A stretch of DNA of 64,000 bases, from contig CALSQR010000001.1 of assembly GCA_943788505.1 (NCBI GenBank), forward strand, positions 496,001-560,000, given 5' to 3'. Positions 42,143-51,394 of this stretch are shown piece after piece (the first letter of the stretch is position 1; every line of letters begins with the position of its first letter). Made by a program: the position numbers and the translations under genes. Below the pieces are notes generated by a model, which was not told where the DNA came from, ran no database searches, and saw only the letters and a list, made by a program, of their open reading frames with translations. The DNA comes from an uncultured bacterium (GTDB lineage: Bacteria; Bacteroidota; Rhodothermia; Rhodothermales; UBA10348).

Positions 42143-42655
42143 ATGTCGCAAAATGACTCTGTGAAAGTTGGCGTCGCCATGGGAAGCCAGTCAGATTGGC
42201 CTGTAATGGAAGCCGCTGCCGACCTGCTTGCTGAATTCGGTGTCGCGTTCGAAGCGCGTGTCTTGAGCGCACATCGCACGCCAGAGGCCATGACTGCCTA
42301 TGCAGAAGAGGCTGCATCACGCGGATTGAAAGTGATCATTGCAGGAGCCGGCGGAGCCGCCCACCTTCCTGGAATGATTGCTGCGTCCACATCATTACCC
42401 GTCATTGGCGTCCCCGTGCCAACACACAACCTCAAGGGCCTAGACTCTCTACTTTCTATTGTCCAGATGCCAGGCGGCGTTCCTGTAGCTACCGTGGCTA
42501 TTGGCGGCGCAAAGAATGCGGGCCTGCTTGCCGTGCAGATTTTAGCAACGTCCGACGAAAACCTCTTTGACAGCCTAGAAACCTACAAAGCCTCCCTGAA
42601 AAGTCTGGTGAGAGACATGGATCAGCAGGTCGGCGAAATGGCTGCTCGTAAGTAG
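42143..42655 (+). CDS. purE: N5-CAIR mutase (class I PurE)
   Basis: 170 aa. Motifs: [35 protein letters not shown] and the catalytic [14 protein letters not shown] segment. Working with PurK marks the class I (bacterial two-step) route in de novo purine synthesis. It is the last gene before a strong hairpin. Confidence 0.96.
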
Positions 42656-42699: not shown

Positions 42700-42735
42700 A
42701 ATAAGGCCGCGCACCATTAGGTGCGCGGCCTTATT
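42700..42735. terminator. Strong, probably bidirectional terminator
   Basis: Perfect stem AATAAGGCCGCGCACC / GGTGCGCGGCCTTATT with loop ATTA, 45 bases after purE and 60 bases beyond the stop of the convergent GWxTD gene. AT-rich flanks on both sides suit both directions. Confidence 0.85.
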
Positions 42736-42795: not shown

Positions 42796-45243
42796 TTACT
42801 CTAAGAATAGGTCTTTCGTCATCTCAACGTCCCGACCTGAATTCTGATCAGTAATCTTTACCGTAAGCGTAAATAGGCCCGAATCCAGATTGTCTGCGTC
42901 AAGAATGAGGTACTGTCCGTCCTCTGAGGCCTCTACAGAGATCGGCACACCGGTCGAAACACCTCGTCCGCCCCCACCAACTAGACCGCGAAATACACGA
43001 GTCAAACTATTGCCCATTTCTTTGGGTGTCAGTTCAGCCTCTACCTCATAACGTGCCAGACCAGTATCGTCCTGAGCGAGATTGTACACCTCGAAATAGA
43101 TATAAATAGGCTGATCAGTTCCGAACACCGTCCAAGGAGCAGGCTGAATCGACAAGCCTTTCCTGAGAATGTTTGAGCTAGACCCTTCTGCCAAGTCCGC
43201 TTCTTCGATCCGATAAGCCAATAGAATATCAGACATAGATAGCTGAGTCCCTGAAAAGTCCTGTACCTCTACCTTTCTTCTCTGGACTGCTACTGTACCG
43301 CCGCCGGCCGTCTCGAACTCGACGGAAATCTCGTGATTCCCAGGAGGGGTTGTAAGGCGTTGCGTGTCAACCCATAGGTTCGACTCATCGAATCGCACGA
43401 TCTGAGAAATGGGTAGACCATAGATTGTGCGACGACGCTCAACGAGCATATCTCGGTTCTCAGCAACAACAAACATCCCTTGGTTGGCCGTGAGGCTTAT
43501 AAACTCGGCTGATGGATCGTATGCATCAGTGATCGGCACAGCATAATTCACGTAGACGTCGGTCGTTCCATCGGCTCCTTTGAAGGAGGCAACTGCATAA
43601 GGCAACTCAATTTGACGTCCTGGTGCTTCATACTCGTACCGTTCCGGTGTCTCGCGGATGGTCTCTTTTGCTTTGATGATGTAGTCGTTTACATACGGAA
43701 TAGCACCATTTGCGATATCTTCCGCTGAAGGGCTATACAAACGATATTCGCCGTTACGGAAGGGATCTTCAAATACGAATTTGAAGTCACCATAATCCCA
43801 AATGTTATAGGTGTTTGCTTCTTCAAACATGTCCCATCCACTGCCCTGGCGTCCAACTTGAATCGCCAATCCTGAATCACCCGTCGGGTCCTGGTCTGAG
43901 CCCATCTTTGCCGGCGCGCCTTGCATGACTCCCGATCCGGAACGAGGGATAATGACAACATCCCCCTGTGGTGCACCATATCTAACAAGAATTTGACCAC
44001 GTTCGGTGTTCCATCCTTTCAGGTTTACTGCCGGAGAACCATAAAGTAGATCCGCATACGTCAATCGGGCATAATGCTCTATTTTTCTTTCATTAAACGG
44101 GGTTAGAAATCTGGGATCCTTCGATGTCCAAAAACGAGCAGTATAGGCCGCTTCATCCTCTTTATACCTTTTGAGTTCATCCTCTGGCAGAATGTTCTCC
44201 AGATGACTAAAAGCGTATTCAGTTTCACTATCCATAAACCTGAAAGAAGTCTCAAATGACTTTGATGCAGCCTCTAGATTTCCAGAATGATAATGGGCGT
44301 ACCCGAGATACGTCCATAGTTCAGGATCTTCGGGGAAAAAGACATACATCTGGGAAAGCATCTGCAGAGCATCGTCATATTCTCCCTTAAGAGAATATAT
44401 CTCCATCAGATGGTCGTAAACAGTCCGTTGCCTAGGATCTGCTTCTAAAGCGGCATTGAGATGTCCAATCGCTCTATCGTATGCTTCCTGAGCTCTTTCT
44501 GAAAGATCCAATACTGGTATACCTTGGCTTTTGAGAGCCTCTACGTCAAACTCATCGGCCATAAACACGTTGTTAGGATTCCAAGACACCCCTGCTTGCT
44601 GAATAGATATGTTGGGAATCTCAGACTCTTGAATTCCTCCGTTAGCGAGGTCGTAAGCATTTGCTTGATCCACAAGGTACCCGGCCATTGGATCATATTC
44701 CGTTCTGGAACGATAATCTGCTCGCAAAAAGTCCAACGCTGGGTACATAAACGCGTTGCGATACCGCCAGAAGTCCCTAATAAACGTTGCTCCTAGTTCC
44801 TCGTGGGCAAACGAGTTGGTTTCATCTAGCTTAAGAATATCTACGGCGAGACGTCTCCTTCGCGCTTCGCGTGATTGTTCGACCATGAACAACCTTGATT
44901 CCGCTCTTAGCTGCTGAAGTAAAGCAACCATGTATTGGACATTGTTCGGTTCGATAGCCAAAGCTGCTTCCAACTCCTTACCAGCACGTGATGGGTCTCT
45001 CAAGTCTGTTTCCCAATAGAGCCTAGCAAGCAGGAAATGGGCTTCCGCATTTGTGGGGTCCGCCTTGAGCGCTTCTTCGAAATACGTCACGGCATCAGAG
45101 TGATTACCACTACGGAAGGCCAAAATGCCCTCGGTCATAGGGTCAGCATCTTGAGCGAAGATCGGAATCGAACTAAAAAGTGCCACGAGAACGATACCTA
45201 TCGTTCTTGAGAAGCGTTTTCCAAGGTCAAAGTTACTTGTCAT
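42796..45243 (-). CDS. GWxTD-domain protein with TPR repeats (second copy)
   Basis: 815 aa. Signal peptide (TIGIVLVALFSSIPIFAQ), then TPR units (about 30-130 and 235-340: NHSDAVTYFEEALKADPTNA EAHFLLARLYWE; EYDDALQMLSQMYVFFPEDP). The GWxTD region follows (about 375-460: FWTSKDPRFLTPFNERKIEH YARLTYADLLYG; GWNTERGQILVRYGAPQGDV), then KFVFEDPFRNGEYRLYSP and beta-sandwich domains to the end. Paralogue of 48484-50742 in the same operon. GWxTD proteins are widespread in Bacteroidota and Acidobacteriota and have no established function. Last gene of the operon, 50 bases after the DUF4249-like gene. Confidence 0.8.
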   Translation of the reverse strand: MTSNFDLGKRFSRTIGIVLVALFSSIPIFAQDADPMTEGILAFRSGNHSDAVTYFEEALKADPTNAEAHFLLARLYWETDLRDPSRAGKELEAALAIEPNNVQYMVALLQQLRAESRLFMVEQSREARRRRLAVDILKLDETNSFAHEELGATFIRDFWRYRNAFMYPALDFLRADYRSRTEYDPMAGYLVDQANAYDLANGGIQESEIPNISIQQAGVSWNPNNVFMADEFDVEALKSQGIPVLDLSERAQEAYDRAIGHLNAALEADPRQRTVYDHLMEIYSLKGEYDDALQMLSQMYVFFPEDPELWTYLGYAHYHSGNLEAASKSFETSFRFMDSETEYAFSHLENILPEDELKRYKEDEAAYTARFWTSKDPRFLTPFNERKIEHYARLTYADLLYGSPAVNLKGWNTERGQILVRYGAPQGDVVIIPRSGSGVMQGAPAKMGSDQDPTGDSGLAIQVGRQGSGWDMFEEANTYNIWDYGDFKFVFEDPFRNGEYRLYSPSAEDIANGAIPYVNDYIIKAKETIRETPERYEYEAPGRQIELPYAVASFKGADGTTDVYVNYAVPITDAYDPSAEFISLTANQGMFVVAENRDMLVERRRTIYGLPISQIVRFDESNLWVDTQRLTTPPGNHEISVEFETAGGGTVAVQRRKVEVQDFSGTQLSMSDILLAYRIEEADLAEGSSSNILRKGLSIQPAPWTVFGTDQPIYIYFEVYNLAQDDTGLARYEVEAELTPKEMGNSLTRVFRGLVGGGGRGVSTGVPISVEASEDGQYLILDADNLDSGLFTLTVKITDQNSGRDVEMTKDLFLE

Positions 45244-45293
45244 TGTCGTGCTGTTGAATGCATTTCTAGCTCTACGCTAAATAGGCGCTATGA

Positions 45294-46190
45294 TCATCGG
45301 TCAATAGAAAAGCCCGCATCACGAGCTATTTCGTCATCAAGAACAAAGATGAAGGAATCGAAATATCCTCCACCCACGAATCCGAATCCATTATGGACAT
45401 TTGAAAACGTACCAGGTTGAACGAGCAACTCGGGGTCGAAAGATCCCACCGGACTCTCCCATTCTTCAGAAACCACGAAAGCTTTTACTTCAATCTGGTG
45501 TAGAATCACTGGGGTCCTTCCCGGTTGAATCTGCAGCGCGGAGAAAATGGCTCCGATATCGGACGAAGGTATTATAGTGACTGCCCATGTACCGTCGCTG
45601 TTTTCTTGAACGCGACCGCTCTTAATATCTACCCGAACGGTCGTTGTATCGCTTCCATCAGGAAATGGTATTCGGACGAAATAGCTAACATCAGCTTGAA
45701 TGATGCGAGGTACATCTGCCCAGTTCATTGTTACGATCACATTGCTCCTTGACGAGACGATGTTGTCAATCCGCACATCTCCGTCGGGAGGAGTTATGAG
45801 ATCTACAAAGGCCTCACGCCCGTCGCTGCGAACGGCAGTAATAATGTATCTGGTCGAGTGAGTAGCTCTAAAGTCTGCTACAAATACATGCCCAATGCTA
45901 CGATCACGAAACGTTATGACCGAATCACGCCAAACGATCGTTTCGCCAGTGTCCATATTGACTGAAGTCACAACTGCATCAAGAAAATCCGTCGTGGTAG
46001 GAAAAAGTATTCCATCAACCGTAAAGATCCTTAATGCTTGCTGGTCTGAGGATGGATCCAAATACCCATACATTGAGAACGCCTCCTCTGTCTCAAGTAC
46101 TGGGTCTACTGACTCTTGGCATCCTACAATCACCATCGCGAAGAGCGTCAATAGAGGAAGCCAAATAGCTATTTTATCTCCTGATCTCAT
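45294..46190 (-). CDS. DUF4249-like lipoprotein, partner of the TonB receptor
   Basis: 298 aa. Lipoprotein signal with lipobox AMVIVGC (Cys about residue 24), followed by QESVDPVLETEEAFSMYGYL. Beta-rich body with VNMDTGETIVWRDS, TRYIITAVRSDGREAFVDLI TPPDG and an end FVGGGYFDSFIFVLDDE. It resembles DUF4249 lipoproteins, which are usually encoded beside TonB receptors in Bacteroidota; the match is by pattern, not certain. Its ATG overlaps the receptor stop (ATGA), so it is translated from the same message. Likely a surface or periplasmic ligand-handling partner. Confidence 0.6.
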   Translation of the reverse strand: MRSGDKIAIWLPLLTLFAMVIVGCQESVDPVLETEEAFSMYGYLDPSSDQQALRIFTVDGILFPTTTDFLDAVVTSVNMDTGETIVWRDSVITFRDRSIGHVFVADFRATHSTRYIITAVRSDGREAFVDLITPPDGDVRIDNIVSSRSNVIVTMNWADVPRIIQADVSYFVRIPFPDGSDTTTVRVDIKSGRVQENSDGTWAVTIIPSSDIGAIFSALQIQPGRTPVILHQIEVKAFVVSEEWESPVGSFDPELLVQPGTFSNVHNGFGFVGGGYFDSFIFVLDDEIARDAGFSIDR

Positions 46191-48487
46191 TCGAATTCCA
46201 ATTTCAGTCCGAACGTCGGAATTAATGGGAGTTGATCAACACGGCGAAGCGTAAATACATCCAGATAAAACAAGTTGCGTCGATCATATGCATTAATGAC
46301 TCCTGCCAGTACGGTAAGGGTTGCTTCTCCAGGAAGGGTCATTGATCGGTCGATTGTCACATCCAGCCTGTGATAAGTAGGTAAGATTCCGTTGTACGGC
46401 TTCTGATAGATCACGCGTCGATTCCCGGGATCATTGTACACATCCAGTTCTCCATCAACGAGCATAAAACCGTCAAAACCAAGAGCTCTACTATAGGGAA
46501 GACCAGAACCGAACTGCCAACGGACATCAATATCAAAAGGCCTGAAATCAAACGAGGTAACCAGATTAAGCTGATGTCTACGGTCGTGAGCTGGGCGGAA
46601 ACTGAGTTCCTTGCTGCCATACCACAGCTCAATGGACTCTTGCTGCGCTGTGTAACGAACTGATGAAAGGCCGTAGGTAATTAATCCGGTGAACGGTTTT
46701 TTACGGTATTCTACTCTAAAATCACCACCGTATACCCTGCCTTCAGCGGGCTGGATTCTCGTCGTAAATCTAGGATAAGCAGTCCATTCTGGAATGTAGA
46801 GATTGTTGAGTTTCTTGGCGTACCCCTCTACGCTCACCTCTAGATGCTCGTTGAACATTCTACGATAGCCCGCAATTACGTGAATAGCTTCGGGCACCTT
46901 TTGATCAAACGTGCTTGAGGTCCAGGCCGTAAATACGCCAGCGGCATCCCTCCTATCTGTCAACCCTACGATCTCCTGGTGAAAAATCCCGGCAGCAAAG
47001 GTGTATTCATCTCGGTCATTGACCTTCACTGCGCGAAATCTAGGCTCTAGGAAACCTGAGTTTTGACTTGGAAAAGAATGGATTCTAAATCCAGTACGTA
47101 CCTGCCAGCCATAGGCTAACCTGAATTCTGGTTCGATATACATACCAACTTCCGTAGCATACTCTTTGCGGTCCGAAAAACCCTGATACAAGCCATCAAG
47201 ACTGGCTTGCAATTCCACAGTTCTTGCAAATAGCCCCCATCTCACTTCAGTATTGCGATGGAAGTGAGTAATGTTCACCGTGGTATTGGCACTGGACAGC
47301 TTCGAAAACCGTTCTTCCTGACTCAGGCCACCTAGAGATGACTTAAGTCGAGATCCGGACAGGATAAACTCAGCCATGACTGGGAAAGCACGCGGAAAAA
47401 CCAAATAACGCATTGAAGCTGATCTATTCTGCCAGCTGAGAAATTGTTCATCTTGCAGGTCATTCCCTTCAAACACAGTACCTCGGTCATCTGTTCGAAG
47501 CAGTGAAAGGGAGAGCTGCGTATTTGAGTTGATGAATGCGTGCGTCTTGGCAAAGAAGTCGCTGAACTGGAATGGAAGGTCATCCTGAACAAGCTTAGAC
47601 GCACCCTGCTCAATCACTGACTCGCGATAACTGACTAGAAAGGAAACGACATCAACTGCGATCGGACCCTCCAGCGTAAATCCGGAAACAAAAGGTGCCA
47701 ATGAGCCAGAACCCGCAAAGCCACGCTTATCGCCATTTCTACTCTTTACATCAATGACAGACGATATTCGGCCGCCATACTGACTTGTAAATCCTCCTGC
47801 GTAGACATCGACTTCCTGCAGTATATCTGTCGGAAAGGAGGAAAAAAAGCCAAGTATGTGAAATGGCTGATATACCCACATTCCGTCCAATAAGACCAGA
47901 TTCTGCCAAGGCTCACCTCCTCGAATGAAGAGTTGGCCTCCGCGATCCCCGATGGAAACTATGCCGGGCAAGGTCGTGAGATAGTTAATTAAGTCTCCAG
48001 AGACGTCGGGCGACGGAATCATTTCGACATCTGCGGGTCGGATTGACGTCTGCCCAGCCAGAATACGCGCAGCTCCTGTGTCGGAATCTCCTCGAACGAC
48101 CACCTCATCTAGTTCAGTCTCAGTCTCTTGCATGACGAGGTTCACTATCAAGCGATCTCCCTGCCCAATAGTGAGCGTATCCCGTTCAGTAGCATACCCC
48201 ACGAAGGTTGCTCTCAATACGTAGATACCCGGTGAAATACCTGGCAACGCGTAGACTCCATCTGATCCAGAGGCTGTCCCGGCCACGAGCGTATCCGCTT
48301 GAAAAAGAGCAATGTTGACCCCTTGAAGCCATTCTCCATCGCTTGCTGCAACGACGGTACCTCGCAAAATAGCCTGTTGAGCGTGCACCGGAGTGGCAAA
48401 CAGACCTATTACAAGCAGCATGCATTGTCCAATGAACAATGGATTCCTTTTCAGGCGCAAGAAACTCGTTATTAGGCTACGTTTCAT
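46187..48487 (-). CDS. TonB-dependent receptor with N-terminal CarboxypepD_reg-like domain
   Basis: 766 aa. Signal peptide (LFIGQCMLLVIGLFATPVHAQ), a CarboxypepD_reg-like domain (about 37-120: LRGTVVAASDGEWLQGVNIA, GISPGIYVLRATFVGYATER), then the plug (TSIRPADVEMIPSPDVSGDL, LPGIVSIGDRGGQLFIRGGE, VYAGGFTSQYGGRISSVIDV). A 22-strand barrel follows, ending in FGLKLEFE. The start and stop codons overlap with both neighbours, so it is the centre of the operon. The substrate is unknown. Lack of a SusD partner argues against a classical glycan system. Confidence 0.9.
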   Translation of the reverse strand: MKRSLITSFLRLKRNPLFIGQCMLLVIGLFATPVHAQQAILRGTVVAASDGEWLQGVNIALFQADTLVAGTASGSDGVYALPGISPGIYVLRATFVGYATERDTLTIGQGDRLIVNLVMQETETELDEVVVRGDSDTGAARILAGQTSIRPADVEMIPSPDVSGDLINYLTTLPGIVSIGDRGGQLFIRGGEPWQNLVLLDGMWVYQPFHILGFFSSFPTDILQEVDVYAGGFTSQYGGRISSVIDVKSRNGDKRGFAGSGSLAPFVSGFTLEGPIAVDVVSFLVSYRESVIEQGASKLVQDDLPFQFSDFFAKTHAFINSNTQLSLSLLRTDDRGTVFEGNDLQDEQFLSWQNRSASMRYLVFPRAFPVMAEFILSGSRLKSSLGGLSQEERFSKLSSANTTVNITHFHRNTEVRWGLFARTVELQASLDGLYQGFSDRKEYATEVGMYIEPEFRLAYGWQVRTGFRIHSFPSQNSGFLEPRFRAVKVNDRDEYTFAAGIFHQEIVGLTDRRDAAGVFTAWTSSTFDQKVPEAIHVIAGYRRMFNEHLEVSVEGYAKKLNNLYIPEWTAYPRFTTRIQPAEGRVYGGDFRVEYRKKPFTGLITYGLSSVRYTAQQESIELWYGSKELSFRPAHDRRHQLNLVTSFDFRPFDIDVRWQFGSGLPYSRALGFDGFMLVDGELDVYNDPGNRRVIYQKPYNGILPTYHRLDVTIDRSMTLPGEATLTVLAGVINAYDRRNLFYLDVFTLRRVDQLPLIPTFGLKLEFE

Positions 48488-50742
48488 CTGGCGGATTCGA
48501 TTACAATTTCCCGTCGGGATACAGCTTGCCTACCGGTAGACGATTCGGTCATGCGAATAGCTAGTGTGTAGGTACCCGGAGCCAAATCCTGCGTTTCCAA
48601 AATGAGAGAGCGCCCTTGTGAATCAGACACAATTTCATCCATAAATTGCACCGATACTGCGGCATTCTCTCTGCGTCCAAAAAGCCGTCCAAGAAGCGAT
48701 GTGCCTACCTCATTGAGACCTCCTTCCGCCACGACCGCCTGTACAGCTAGCGACTCACCAGTCATGACATCTTGCAATCCGTACGCTTCTACATATAGAT
48801 GAAGGTGTTCACCCTGCGCGTAGCTACTCCATACTTTGGGAAAGATGTATAGATCATTGCGCCGAAAAGCGCCCTGAGGAACGGCTTTGGATGCTGGATT
48901 GGCATCTAAGATATCCGAAGCAAGGACTATGTCAGAGACAAGTAGTTGCCCTTCGTCTGCAAAATGGGGAAGATCGATTCGGGCTGCTGCCCAAAACACT
49001 TCATTCGTGACCTCCAGCGAAATCTCCCTTTCCCGAAAGTCTGTCTCGTGTGTAATGATAGTATTGGGACACTCATCGCTCACTTTCACGGGTGTACTGA
49101 AAGCAGGCGGCGGCACAGACGCTCCTTCTTCGCGATCAAATATCAGAATCCGATCCTGTGACGTGAAGCCTCCTCGCAAAAAACAAACAGGAGCAATTAC
49201 TACGCGTGAATCGCCATTACGTAGGACGGAGGAAAGAACTTGCAATGGAAGTCTATTAGACATGTCTACCTCTGTTCTCAAGGGATCATCTCTAAACACT
49301 TCTCGAGCCTGCAGAACGAAGTCGTTAAACCCGATTGGAGGACGAGGACCATTAAGTTGATCTGCGGGTGGCGAATAGAATATTGGCTTCCCTGTTTTTG
49401 CGATATCATGGAAGTACCAATACCTGTCCCCGTAATGAAGAACGTGGTATCTCGAGCCTTCATCTTGGAATTGGATATAAGATTTGGGTGAACCATATCG
49501 GACAATCACTTGCCCTGGTTCTGTTTCCCACCCACGATACCCCTCCTCAGGCCGTCCCCATAACAGATCAACCTTTGTCATACGCGACATATGCTCGGTA
49601 AGACGTTCGTTATCCGGTGTCGTCCATCTAGGATCCTGCCTACTCCAGAAATCAGCCAATTGTGATGCACCAATCCGTTTATAATCGCTTTCTACGACGC
49701 GGCTGACAACACGCGATGGGTTCTGCCAAATCAGTGCCTCCTCTTCCGTCATTAGAGCAATAGCCTTCTCAAATTCAATTGAAGCACGGTCCTTGTTGCC
49801 TAATTCGTACTGAAACATCCCCAGCAAGCGATGGCCTTCTGAAGCATTTGGGAATCGCCCAACATATTCGGCGACAACCATTAGACCATCCTGAAGACGT
49901 CCAGCCCGGAGTGTTGACTCGGACAGATTCCGGATGGCTTCAGCCCTCAAATGTCCAGATACCGAAGCTCTGATGAAATAGCGCACCGTTTCCGTGGATA
50001 TCTCATTGAACGCATCATCACTCCAGATCACTTGAATTTCAGGAGAGCCAGACAGACGGGCCTCAAATTTTGGCTTACCTGTCCTGGGGTCGATCTCAGA
50101 CGAGGCATACATGGCCAGAAACTCCAATCCACCGTCCGAGGAGGCATCAATCCCGAATCGAACAGCGCCATCCAATGTCCGTTGTTGATCCAGACGTAAC
50201 CGGCCCGCTACCAAATTGGCAATTGCGTCGGTAGGATCTTCTTCCAGCAACTCCTTCGCCCTTTTCATCTGCATGGCGTCGCGGTAGGTCGGAAGGAAGG
50301 AAATACCATATCGGTAGTCTCTCCAAAGGTCCAATGCTTCTATGTCTGGCCGTTTGCGCGTACTTCGGGGAAGCTTTCGCAGTGCAGAATTGGCTGCCGA
50401 CGGTTCTGGATTTGGACCAAACAACATTGCCGATGCTAACAGAATTAGGCCGTCTTCATCACGGGGCCAGCGATTGAGAATCTGCATGGCCTGTGCCCTA
50501 ACAAGTTGATAATTGCCTGCAGAAAGAGCCATTTCTGCCTGCCTAACTCGGTCATCTCGGGTCAATCCAGTTTCGGAAACAGCTATCTCCTCCTGATTTT
50601 GAGCGGAGGCTGGCGTAACCGCAATTAATACGGCTAGCAAACACCAAAGCAGAAGCATCCTGACATGGACGATGCTACGACCGACCATCACTGATTCAAT
50701 GGATAGACGAGACCTTACGATCCGGAGGTTGATCATGGTCAA
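48484..50742 (-). CDS. GWxTD-domain protein with TPR repeats (first copy)
   Basis: 752 aa from ATG 50742; ATG 50688 (MVGRSIVHVRMLLLWCLLAV) would give a tidier signal peptide ending PASAQ. N-terminal TPR-like region, then EFLAMYASSEIDPRTGKPKF, IRNLSESTLRAGRLQDGLMV and NKDRASIEFEKAIALM. GWxTD region: FWSRQDPRWTTPDNERLTEH, VDLLWGRPEEGYRGWETEPG, VIVRYGSPKSYIQF. Beta-sandwich domains follow (DFVLQAREVFRDD; LAPGTYTLAIRMTESSTG). First gene of the operon; its stop overlaps the receptor ATG. No enzyme motif seen. Confidence 0.8.
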   Translation of the reverse strand: MTMINLRIVRSRLSIESVMVGRSIVHVRMLLLWCLLAVLIAVTPASAQNQEEIAVSETGLTRDDRVRQAEMALSAGNYQLVRAQAMQILNRWPRDEDGLILLASAMLFGPNPEPSAANSALRKLPRSTRKRPDIEALDLWRDYRYGISFLPTYRDAMQMKRAKELLEEDPTDAIANLVAGRLRLDQQRTLDGAVRFGIDASSDGGLEFLAMYASSEIDPRTGKPKFEARLSGSPEIQVIWSDDAFNEISTETVRYFIRASVSGHLRAEAIRNLSESTLRAGRLQDGLMVVAEYVGRFPNASEGHRLLGMFQYELGNKDRASIEFEKAIALMTEEEALIWQNPSRVVSRVVESDYKRIGASQLADFWSRQDPRWTTPDNERLTEHMSRMTKVDLLWGRPEEGYRGWETEPGQVIVRYGSPKSYIQFQDEGSRYHVLHYGDRYWYFHDIAKTGKPIFYSPPADQLNGPRPPIGFNDFVLQAREVFRDDPLRTEVDMSNRLPLQVLSSVLRNGDSRVVIAPVCFLRGGFTSQDRILIFDREEGASVPPPAFSTPVKVSDECPNTIITHETDFREREISLEVTNEVFWAAARIDLPHFADEGQLLVSDIVLASDILDANPASKAVPQGAFRRNDLYIFPKVWSSYAQGEHLHLYVEAYGLQDVMTGESLAVQAVVAEGGLNEVGTSLLGRLFGRRENAAVSVQFMDEIVSDSQGRSLILETQDLAPGTYTLAIRMTESSTGRQAVSRREIVIESAR

Positions 50743-50926: not shown

Positions 50927-51394
50927 TTACTGATCCTGTAGACGTCGAACATCTGCCCGATCAAGCTTACGTTTTGACTCTCTTTCTGCGATTGAGGCCC
51001 TCTTATCATAGAGCTTCTTCCCCTTGCCTAATCCTATTTCAATTTTGGCCTTACCATTTTTGAAATAGATTTTCATCGGCACTAGTGTGTACCCTTTTTG
51101 AGCAGCAGCCTTGCCTAGTTTTTCAATTTCTTTTCGATGCAGCAGCAGCTTTCGTGTCCGAACGGGGTCATGATTGGCGCGATTACCGTGATCGTACGGT
51201 GCGATGTGACATTGTCGTAGAACCATTTCGCCGCCCTCAACAAGACAAAACGCTTCTTGCAGATTGGCCTTACCAGCCCTTAGCGATTTTACCTCAGTAC
51301 CCTGAAGCACCATACCAGCCTCAAACCGCTCATCAATTTGGTATTCATGAGTCGCTTTTCGATTGCGAGTTACGGTATGAATCGAGTCTGCCAT
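50927..51394 (-). CDS. smpB: SsrA-binding protein SmpB
   Basis: 155 aa. Core: ATHEYQIDERFEAGMVLQGT EVKSLRAGKANLQEAF, CHIAPYDHGNRANHDPVRTR KLLLHRKEI, and the basic C-terminal tail (LYDKRASIAERESKRKLDRA). Binds tmRNA and takes it to stalled ribosomes. It starts 8 bases after the MqnA-like gene; no tmRNA gene is next to it. Confidence 0.97.
   Translation of the reverse strand: MADSIHTVTRNRKATHEYQIDERFEAGMVLQGTEVKSLRAGKANLQEAFCLVEGGEMVLRQCHIAPYDHGNRANHDPVRTRKLLLHRKEIEKLGKAAAQKGYTLVPMKIYFKNGKAKIEIGLGKGKKLYDKRASIAERESKRKLDRADVRRLQDQ

Follow-up and report, generated by a model that had tools for sequence, protein, structure and literature searches.

What two GWxTD-TPR proteins do on the two sides of the genes for a TonB-dependent receptor and a DUF4249-like lipoprotein is the question raised by positions 42796-50742 of the window (the whole stretch of 64,000 nucleotides analysed, from an uncultured bacterium of the Rhodothermales). 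A sequence-only reading had taken the four genes for one operon encoding an outer-membrane uptake or surface complex. Its gene map was borne out by the open reading frames: all four genes lie on the minus strand, in the order GW1 (48484-50742; 752 aa from TTG 50742, with an in-frame ATG at 50736, two codons on), receptor (46187-48487; 766 aa), lipoprotein (45294-46190; 298 aa) and GW2 (42796-45243; 815 aa). The GW1 stop and the receptor start overlap in an ATGA (48484-48487, minus strand), as do the receptor stop and the lipoprotein start (46187-46190, minus strand), and 50 bases separate the lipoprotein gene from GW2. The locus is bounded upstream by the conserved smpB (50927-51394, minus strand) and downstream by the convergent purE (42143-42655, plus strand). 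For the proposed terminator after GW2, a strong hairpin with a 16 bp stem and a 4-base loop was located between GW2 and purE (about 42700-42735, no strand assigned); it is terminator-like, but its T-tract is weak and the terminator scanner made no call there.

Both GW proteins scored above the curated cut-off of the GWxTD model TIGR04514 (28 bits), GW2 with 51.4 bits and GW1 with 38.1 bits, and in this respect the assignment of a GWxTD domain to both was upheld; the TPRs of GW1 gave weak matches in the profile search, and neither protein matched PF20094 (GWxTD_dom, gathering cut-off 26.9 bits). Their paralogy was confirmed by a full-length alignment over ~700 columns (probability 100, E 7e-80). 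GW1 is the fastest-evolving member of the locus: its identity between members of the genus is 45-47%, where the receptor and GW2 reach 74-78%, and in some genera (e.g. at L139 and L145) it has lost the GWxTD motif. Both products have the layout of exported TPR-GWxTD-Ig proteins; the AlphaFold2 model of GW2 (pLDDT 77) predicts a TPR region, a GWxTD part made of helices and a pair of Ig-like domains. A fold search with this model returned generic TPR matches and tandem FnIII matches (RbmA), and an assignment of function to GW2 on this basis was dropped. Compared with other GWxTD proteins (TIGR04514/PF20094), GW1 and GW2 share the domain above the TIGR04514 cut-off and differ in their length (750-815 aa), in the combination of TPR and tandem Ig parts and in lacking a PF20094 match. 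Two shorter GWxTD genes of the source genome score above the PF20094 cut-off (L206 8095-9693 and L207 8537-9949), one adjoining a UbiA-like gene and the other near ftsY-like and MoxR-type ATPase-like genes (names from reading of the sequence only). A literature search on GWxTD, TIGR04514, PF20094 and DUF5916 found no paper giving a function for the GWxTD family.

An action of the two GW proteins on either side of the receptor, as had been proposed, was not supported. Since both carry signal peptides and neither has a lipobox or a match to the T9SS sorting-domain profiles, GW1 and GW2 are probably both periplasmic. We regard it as very improbable that they are instead exposed at the cell surface and capture a ligand together with the lipoprotein, in keeping with the surface complex named in the sequence-only reading: export as such would suit that arrangement, and the tandem Ig domains predicted for GW2 somewhat resemble the biofilm matrix protein RbmA in structure, but the missing lipobox and sorting domain speak against it, and at two loci of other lineages (L245 and L246) a PF13715 domain, which is periplasmic in receptors, is fused at the start of the GW protein and points inward. 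A correlation of GW2 with T9SS was dropped as well; SprA matches were obtained in 146/146 genomes of the class and therefore gave no contrast.

The receptor passed the Pfam cut-off for the Plug domain (35.6 bits, cut-off 23.9) and carries an N-terminal extension, CarbopepD_reg_2 (PF13715), also above the Pfam cut-off, followed by the TonB-box-like motif ELDEVVV. The barrel profile PF00593 gave no match in the Pfam search; length and homologues are compatible with a barrel. The lipoprotein aligned with DUF4249 (PF14054) over profile positions 16-263 of 269, i.e. near full length, with 24.4 bits (E 2.5e-5); this lies below the gathering cut-off of 28.5 bits, and the protein is therefore named DUF4249-like only. 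The lipobox cysteine, Cys24, does not vary among 18 homologues, and the 4-base overlap with the receptor gene was kept in 13/16 relatives checked, so that a lipoprotein signal and receptor adjacency, as used for recognizing a DUF4249 lid, were both found. Two Ig-like domains are predicted in its AlphaFold2 model (pLDDT 84); a fold search gave generic tandem Ig matches with Z under 8, from which no function was taken, and a sequence search of the PDB gave no match. The lipoprotein is a probable lid on the receptor, and uptake across the outer membrane, as first proposed, is supported.

Such pairs have been described. According to Price et al. 2023, as cited in PMC11003636, the receptor subfamily is almost always found beside a DUF4249 protein, and joint working of the two was proposed. 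With the BT2172-BT2173 type of TonB transporter and DUF4249 lid the locus has in common the Plug receptor, the adjoining lipoprotein of the DUF4249 kind and the overlapping genes; it differs in the two flanking GWxTD-TPR genes and in a lipoprotein that stays below the Pfam cut-off. SusCD glycan importers share the PF13715 extension, a TonB-box-like motif and a lipoprotein partner, whereas the receptor studied here is shorter and far below the SusC/RagA cut-off (TIGR04056, 40.4 bits against 368.25), and the SusD family profiles gave no match among the four genes of the locus, as the sequence-only reading had stated. XusAB and BtuBG likewise pair a single receptor with a single lipoprotein lid (PMC13142918), but the lid families differ, a GWxTD partner is missing there, and the match of the receptor to the XusA chain (9gbc_A) is weak (E 6e-4). 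The receptor and DUF4249-like pair is of an already known transporter-lid type, here with GWxTD partners on both sides. The source genome contains two more such pairs, in direct tandem on a second contig (L205 7870-14347), one with a receptor of 49% identity to that of the window. The suggestion of an undescribed system does not hold for the pair, which is of known type; the link between GWxTD proteins and TonB has support from other lineages.

Conservation was analysed in a class-wide survey of 146 genomes, and in 16 genomes of the window's family; the named relatives are Rhodothermales MAGs. Within the family the four genes were intact in 9/16 genomes and spread across contig breaks in 2/16, giving the four-gene order in 11/16, so that it is not limited to the source genome and a chance grouping in one genome is ruled out. 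GW1 was missing in 3/16, with receptor, lipoprotein and GW2 kept, and GW2 stood alone at the locus in 2/16. GW2 forms the conserved core of the locus and is conserved in the order as well, identity being 76-77% in the genus and about 50% order-wide (146 class genomes), and in most genomes read it lies between smpB (often then tyrS) and purE. Among the genomes read outside the family, none had the receptor pair at the smpB/purE site, and in several a GW1-like gene stood next to GW2 in a tandem arrangement, without a receptor. In the GW tree, GW2 formed one group and the GW1 proteins of the family clustered with three of these tandem copies (support 87-92). The receptors of the locus formed one clade (98), whose sister (96) consisted of the receptors of two family genomes that lack the pair here and have the receptor elsewhere with its own DUF4249-like gene. 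Because the locus receptors are one clade and sister to those found elsewhere, a single, late insertion of the receptor pair into a GW locus of greater age is most likely. GW2 predates its association with the receptor and is mostly found without it. The four genes form an operon-like cluster, as had been claimed, but their standing as one unit is weakened by the greater age of GW2, its usual occurrence without the receptor and the loss of GW1 in some close relatives.

Conservation within the family was rejected as functional proof: the smpB-GW2-purE synteny is stable regardless, a single insertion into such a block suffices, and retention of the inserted pair is therefore weak evidence of joint function. 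Co-occurrence of GW2 with the receptor subfamily, tallied by hand, was also dropped as proof; the signal is strong within the order, yet it follows the clades, and f7 and f10 are discordant. GW2 occurs without this receptor subfamily (G135, G137) and the subfamily without GW2 (several f7 genomes), and dependence is therefore not strict. These results suit the main rival reading, in which GW2 is a general envelope protein without a particular tie to TonB and the receptor-lid pair is a passenger from one transposition, kept by inertia, so that the locus would be a neighbourhood and not a system. GW2 holds the smpB/purE site across the order without the receptor, one insertion accounts for the pair, and GW2 and the receptor subfamily can each occur without the other. 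We consider this passenger origin possible if somewhat doubtful; the overlap inside the inserted pair is maintained, which counts against it, and it leaves unexplained what was found beside GWxTD-TPR proteins in other lineages.

For this comparison, the gene neighbours of long GWxTD-TPR proteins from beyond the order were read. A TonB_C gene followed directly after the GW gene in f15 (G001 and G004, same class), f26 (G172 and G233), f44 (G260) and f55 (G407). In a fuller sample of f26 (79 genomes, 27 with GW), further GW loci with an adjoining TonB gene were L347, L352, L355, L357 and L358, and at L359 the TonB gene lay a few genes past GW. Several of the TonB matches were below the Pfam cut-off when taken alone; these proteins align with above-cut-off members, and membrane anchor and linker are present. 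GW neighbours served to build the TonB profile, which was run on fetched loci only, and the counts are therefore not those of a blind survey. A binomial calculation gave about 1e-14 for the adjacency, assuming independent loci, which they are not fully. As each of these genomes holds 3-17 TonB_C matches, chance adjacency of GW and TonB genes appears very unlikely. Proteins of about 350 aa with PF13715 were encoded directly upstream of GW at L352, L355, L357 and L358, in addition to the fusions at L245 and L246; the gene order at L347 was GW-GW-PF13715/Plug-TonB-receptor; and at L351 a DUF4249 gene, above the Pfam cut-off, followed 16 bases after GW, its product aligning lengthwise with the lipoprotein family of the window. 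The better support for a GW-TonB link comes from recurrent neighbourhoods in other lineages, which are invisible from the window sequence alone; with TonB, PF13715 and DUF4249 among the neighbours there, this support is independent of conservation within the family. The TonB gene that adjoins GW in f15 is the one found throughout the class, present in 144/146 genomes with or without GW2, so that a TonB dedicated to GW2 in the class was rejected, and a TonB-system neighbour is missing beside most GW2 genes of the Rhodothermales.

Our preferred explanation, to which we give a probability of about 0.48, is that the receptor and its lid form an import module and that the two GWxTD proteins, exported and probably located in the periplasm, act as adaptors of TonB-driven transport. 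The lipoprotein would close the receptor as a lid, and GW1 and GW2 would serve as scaffolds in the periplasm, with their TPR and Ig parts contacting the periplasmic N-terminal extension of the receptor and/or TonB, which may aid assembly or energy coupling. GW2 may have a more general role in the order, with the receptor pair having joined it later. In favour of adaptors are the four-gene order (11/16), the conserved overlap and the TonB, PF13715 and DUF4249 neighbourhoods elsewhere, all of which are gene neighbourhoods; against them count the separability of GW2 and receptor, a further GW subtype in f26 that is found beside DUF5916-type or ABC ATPase genes, the class-wide nature of the f15 TonB and the position of the pair away from GW2 in two family members. 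In a wider form, which we hold to be rather unlikely, GWxTD-TPR-Ig proteins would be unrecognised periplasmic TonB-system adaptors across Bacteroidota/FCB that act via PF13715, and the window would represent a receptor-lid pair joining such adaptors. Growth is blocked when SusC is deprived of its PF13715 extension, and this extension has been suggested to help in selecting among TonB proteins (PMC7782687). The recurrent GWxTD-TonB-PF13715 neighbourhoods and the two fusions link the GWxTD family with this extension; should GWxTD and PF13715 proteins bind each other, TonB-dependent transport in the phylum would gain an extra periplasmic component. This link beyond the locus is its interesting and testable part, and offers a first testable idea of a GWxTD role.

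The receptor's N-terminal extension may also bear on transport in the opposite direction. Oar-type receptors, which share a PF13620/PF13715 extension, can serve secretion, and Oar is needed for secretion of the PopC protease in Myxococcus (PMC6434023). By analogy, the GW proteins might be periplasmic chaperones that pass cargo to a TonB-dependent secretion channel, and TPR superhelices commonly bind peptides or proteins, an argument taken from the predicted fold only. We think such an export module improbable: a cargo gene is absent nearby, secretion still proceeds when Oar lacks its extension (PMC6434023), and the lid-like lipoprotein points toward capture and import as in the adaptor reading.

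Two further groups of genes were recorded during the reading of neighbourhoods. In f26, GW genes of a second subtype either precede genes for an ABC ATPase and a RadA-like protein or are oriented divergently to one for a DUF5916-type protein (L340, L341, L344; L250, L251, L276, L277, L342, L343, L346, L348-L350, L354). At L189 (147-6375), and also at L194 and L200, tandem arrays of two to four proteins of ~410-480 aa were observed whose only homology is with the Ig part at the C-terminal end of GW2, and neither of the two that were checked had a Pfam match.
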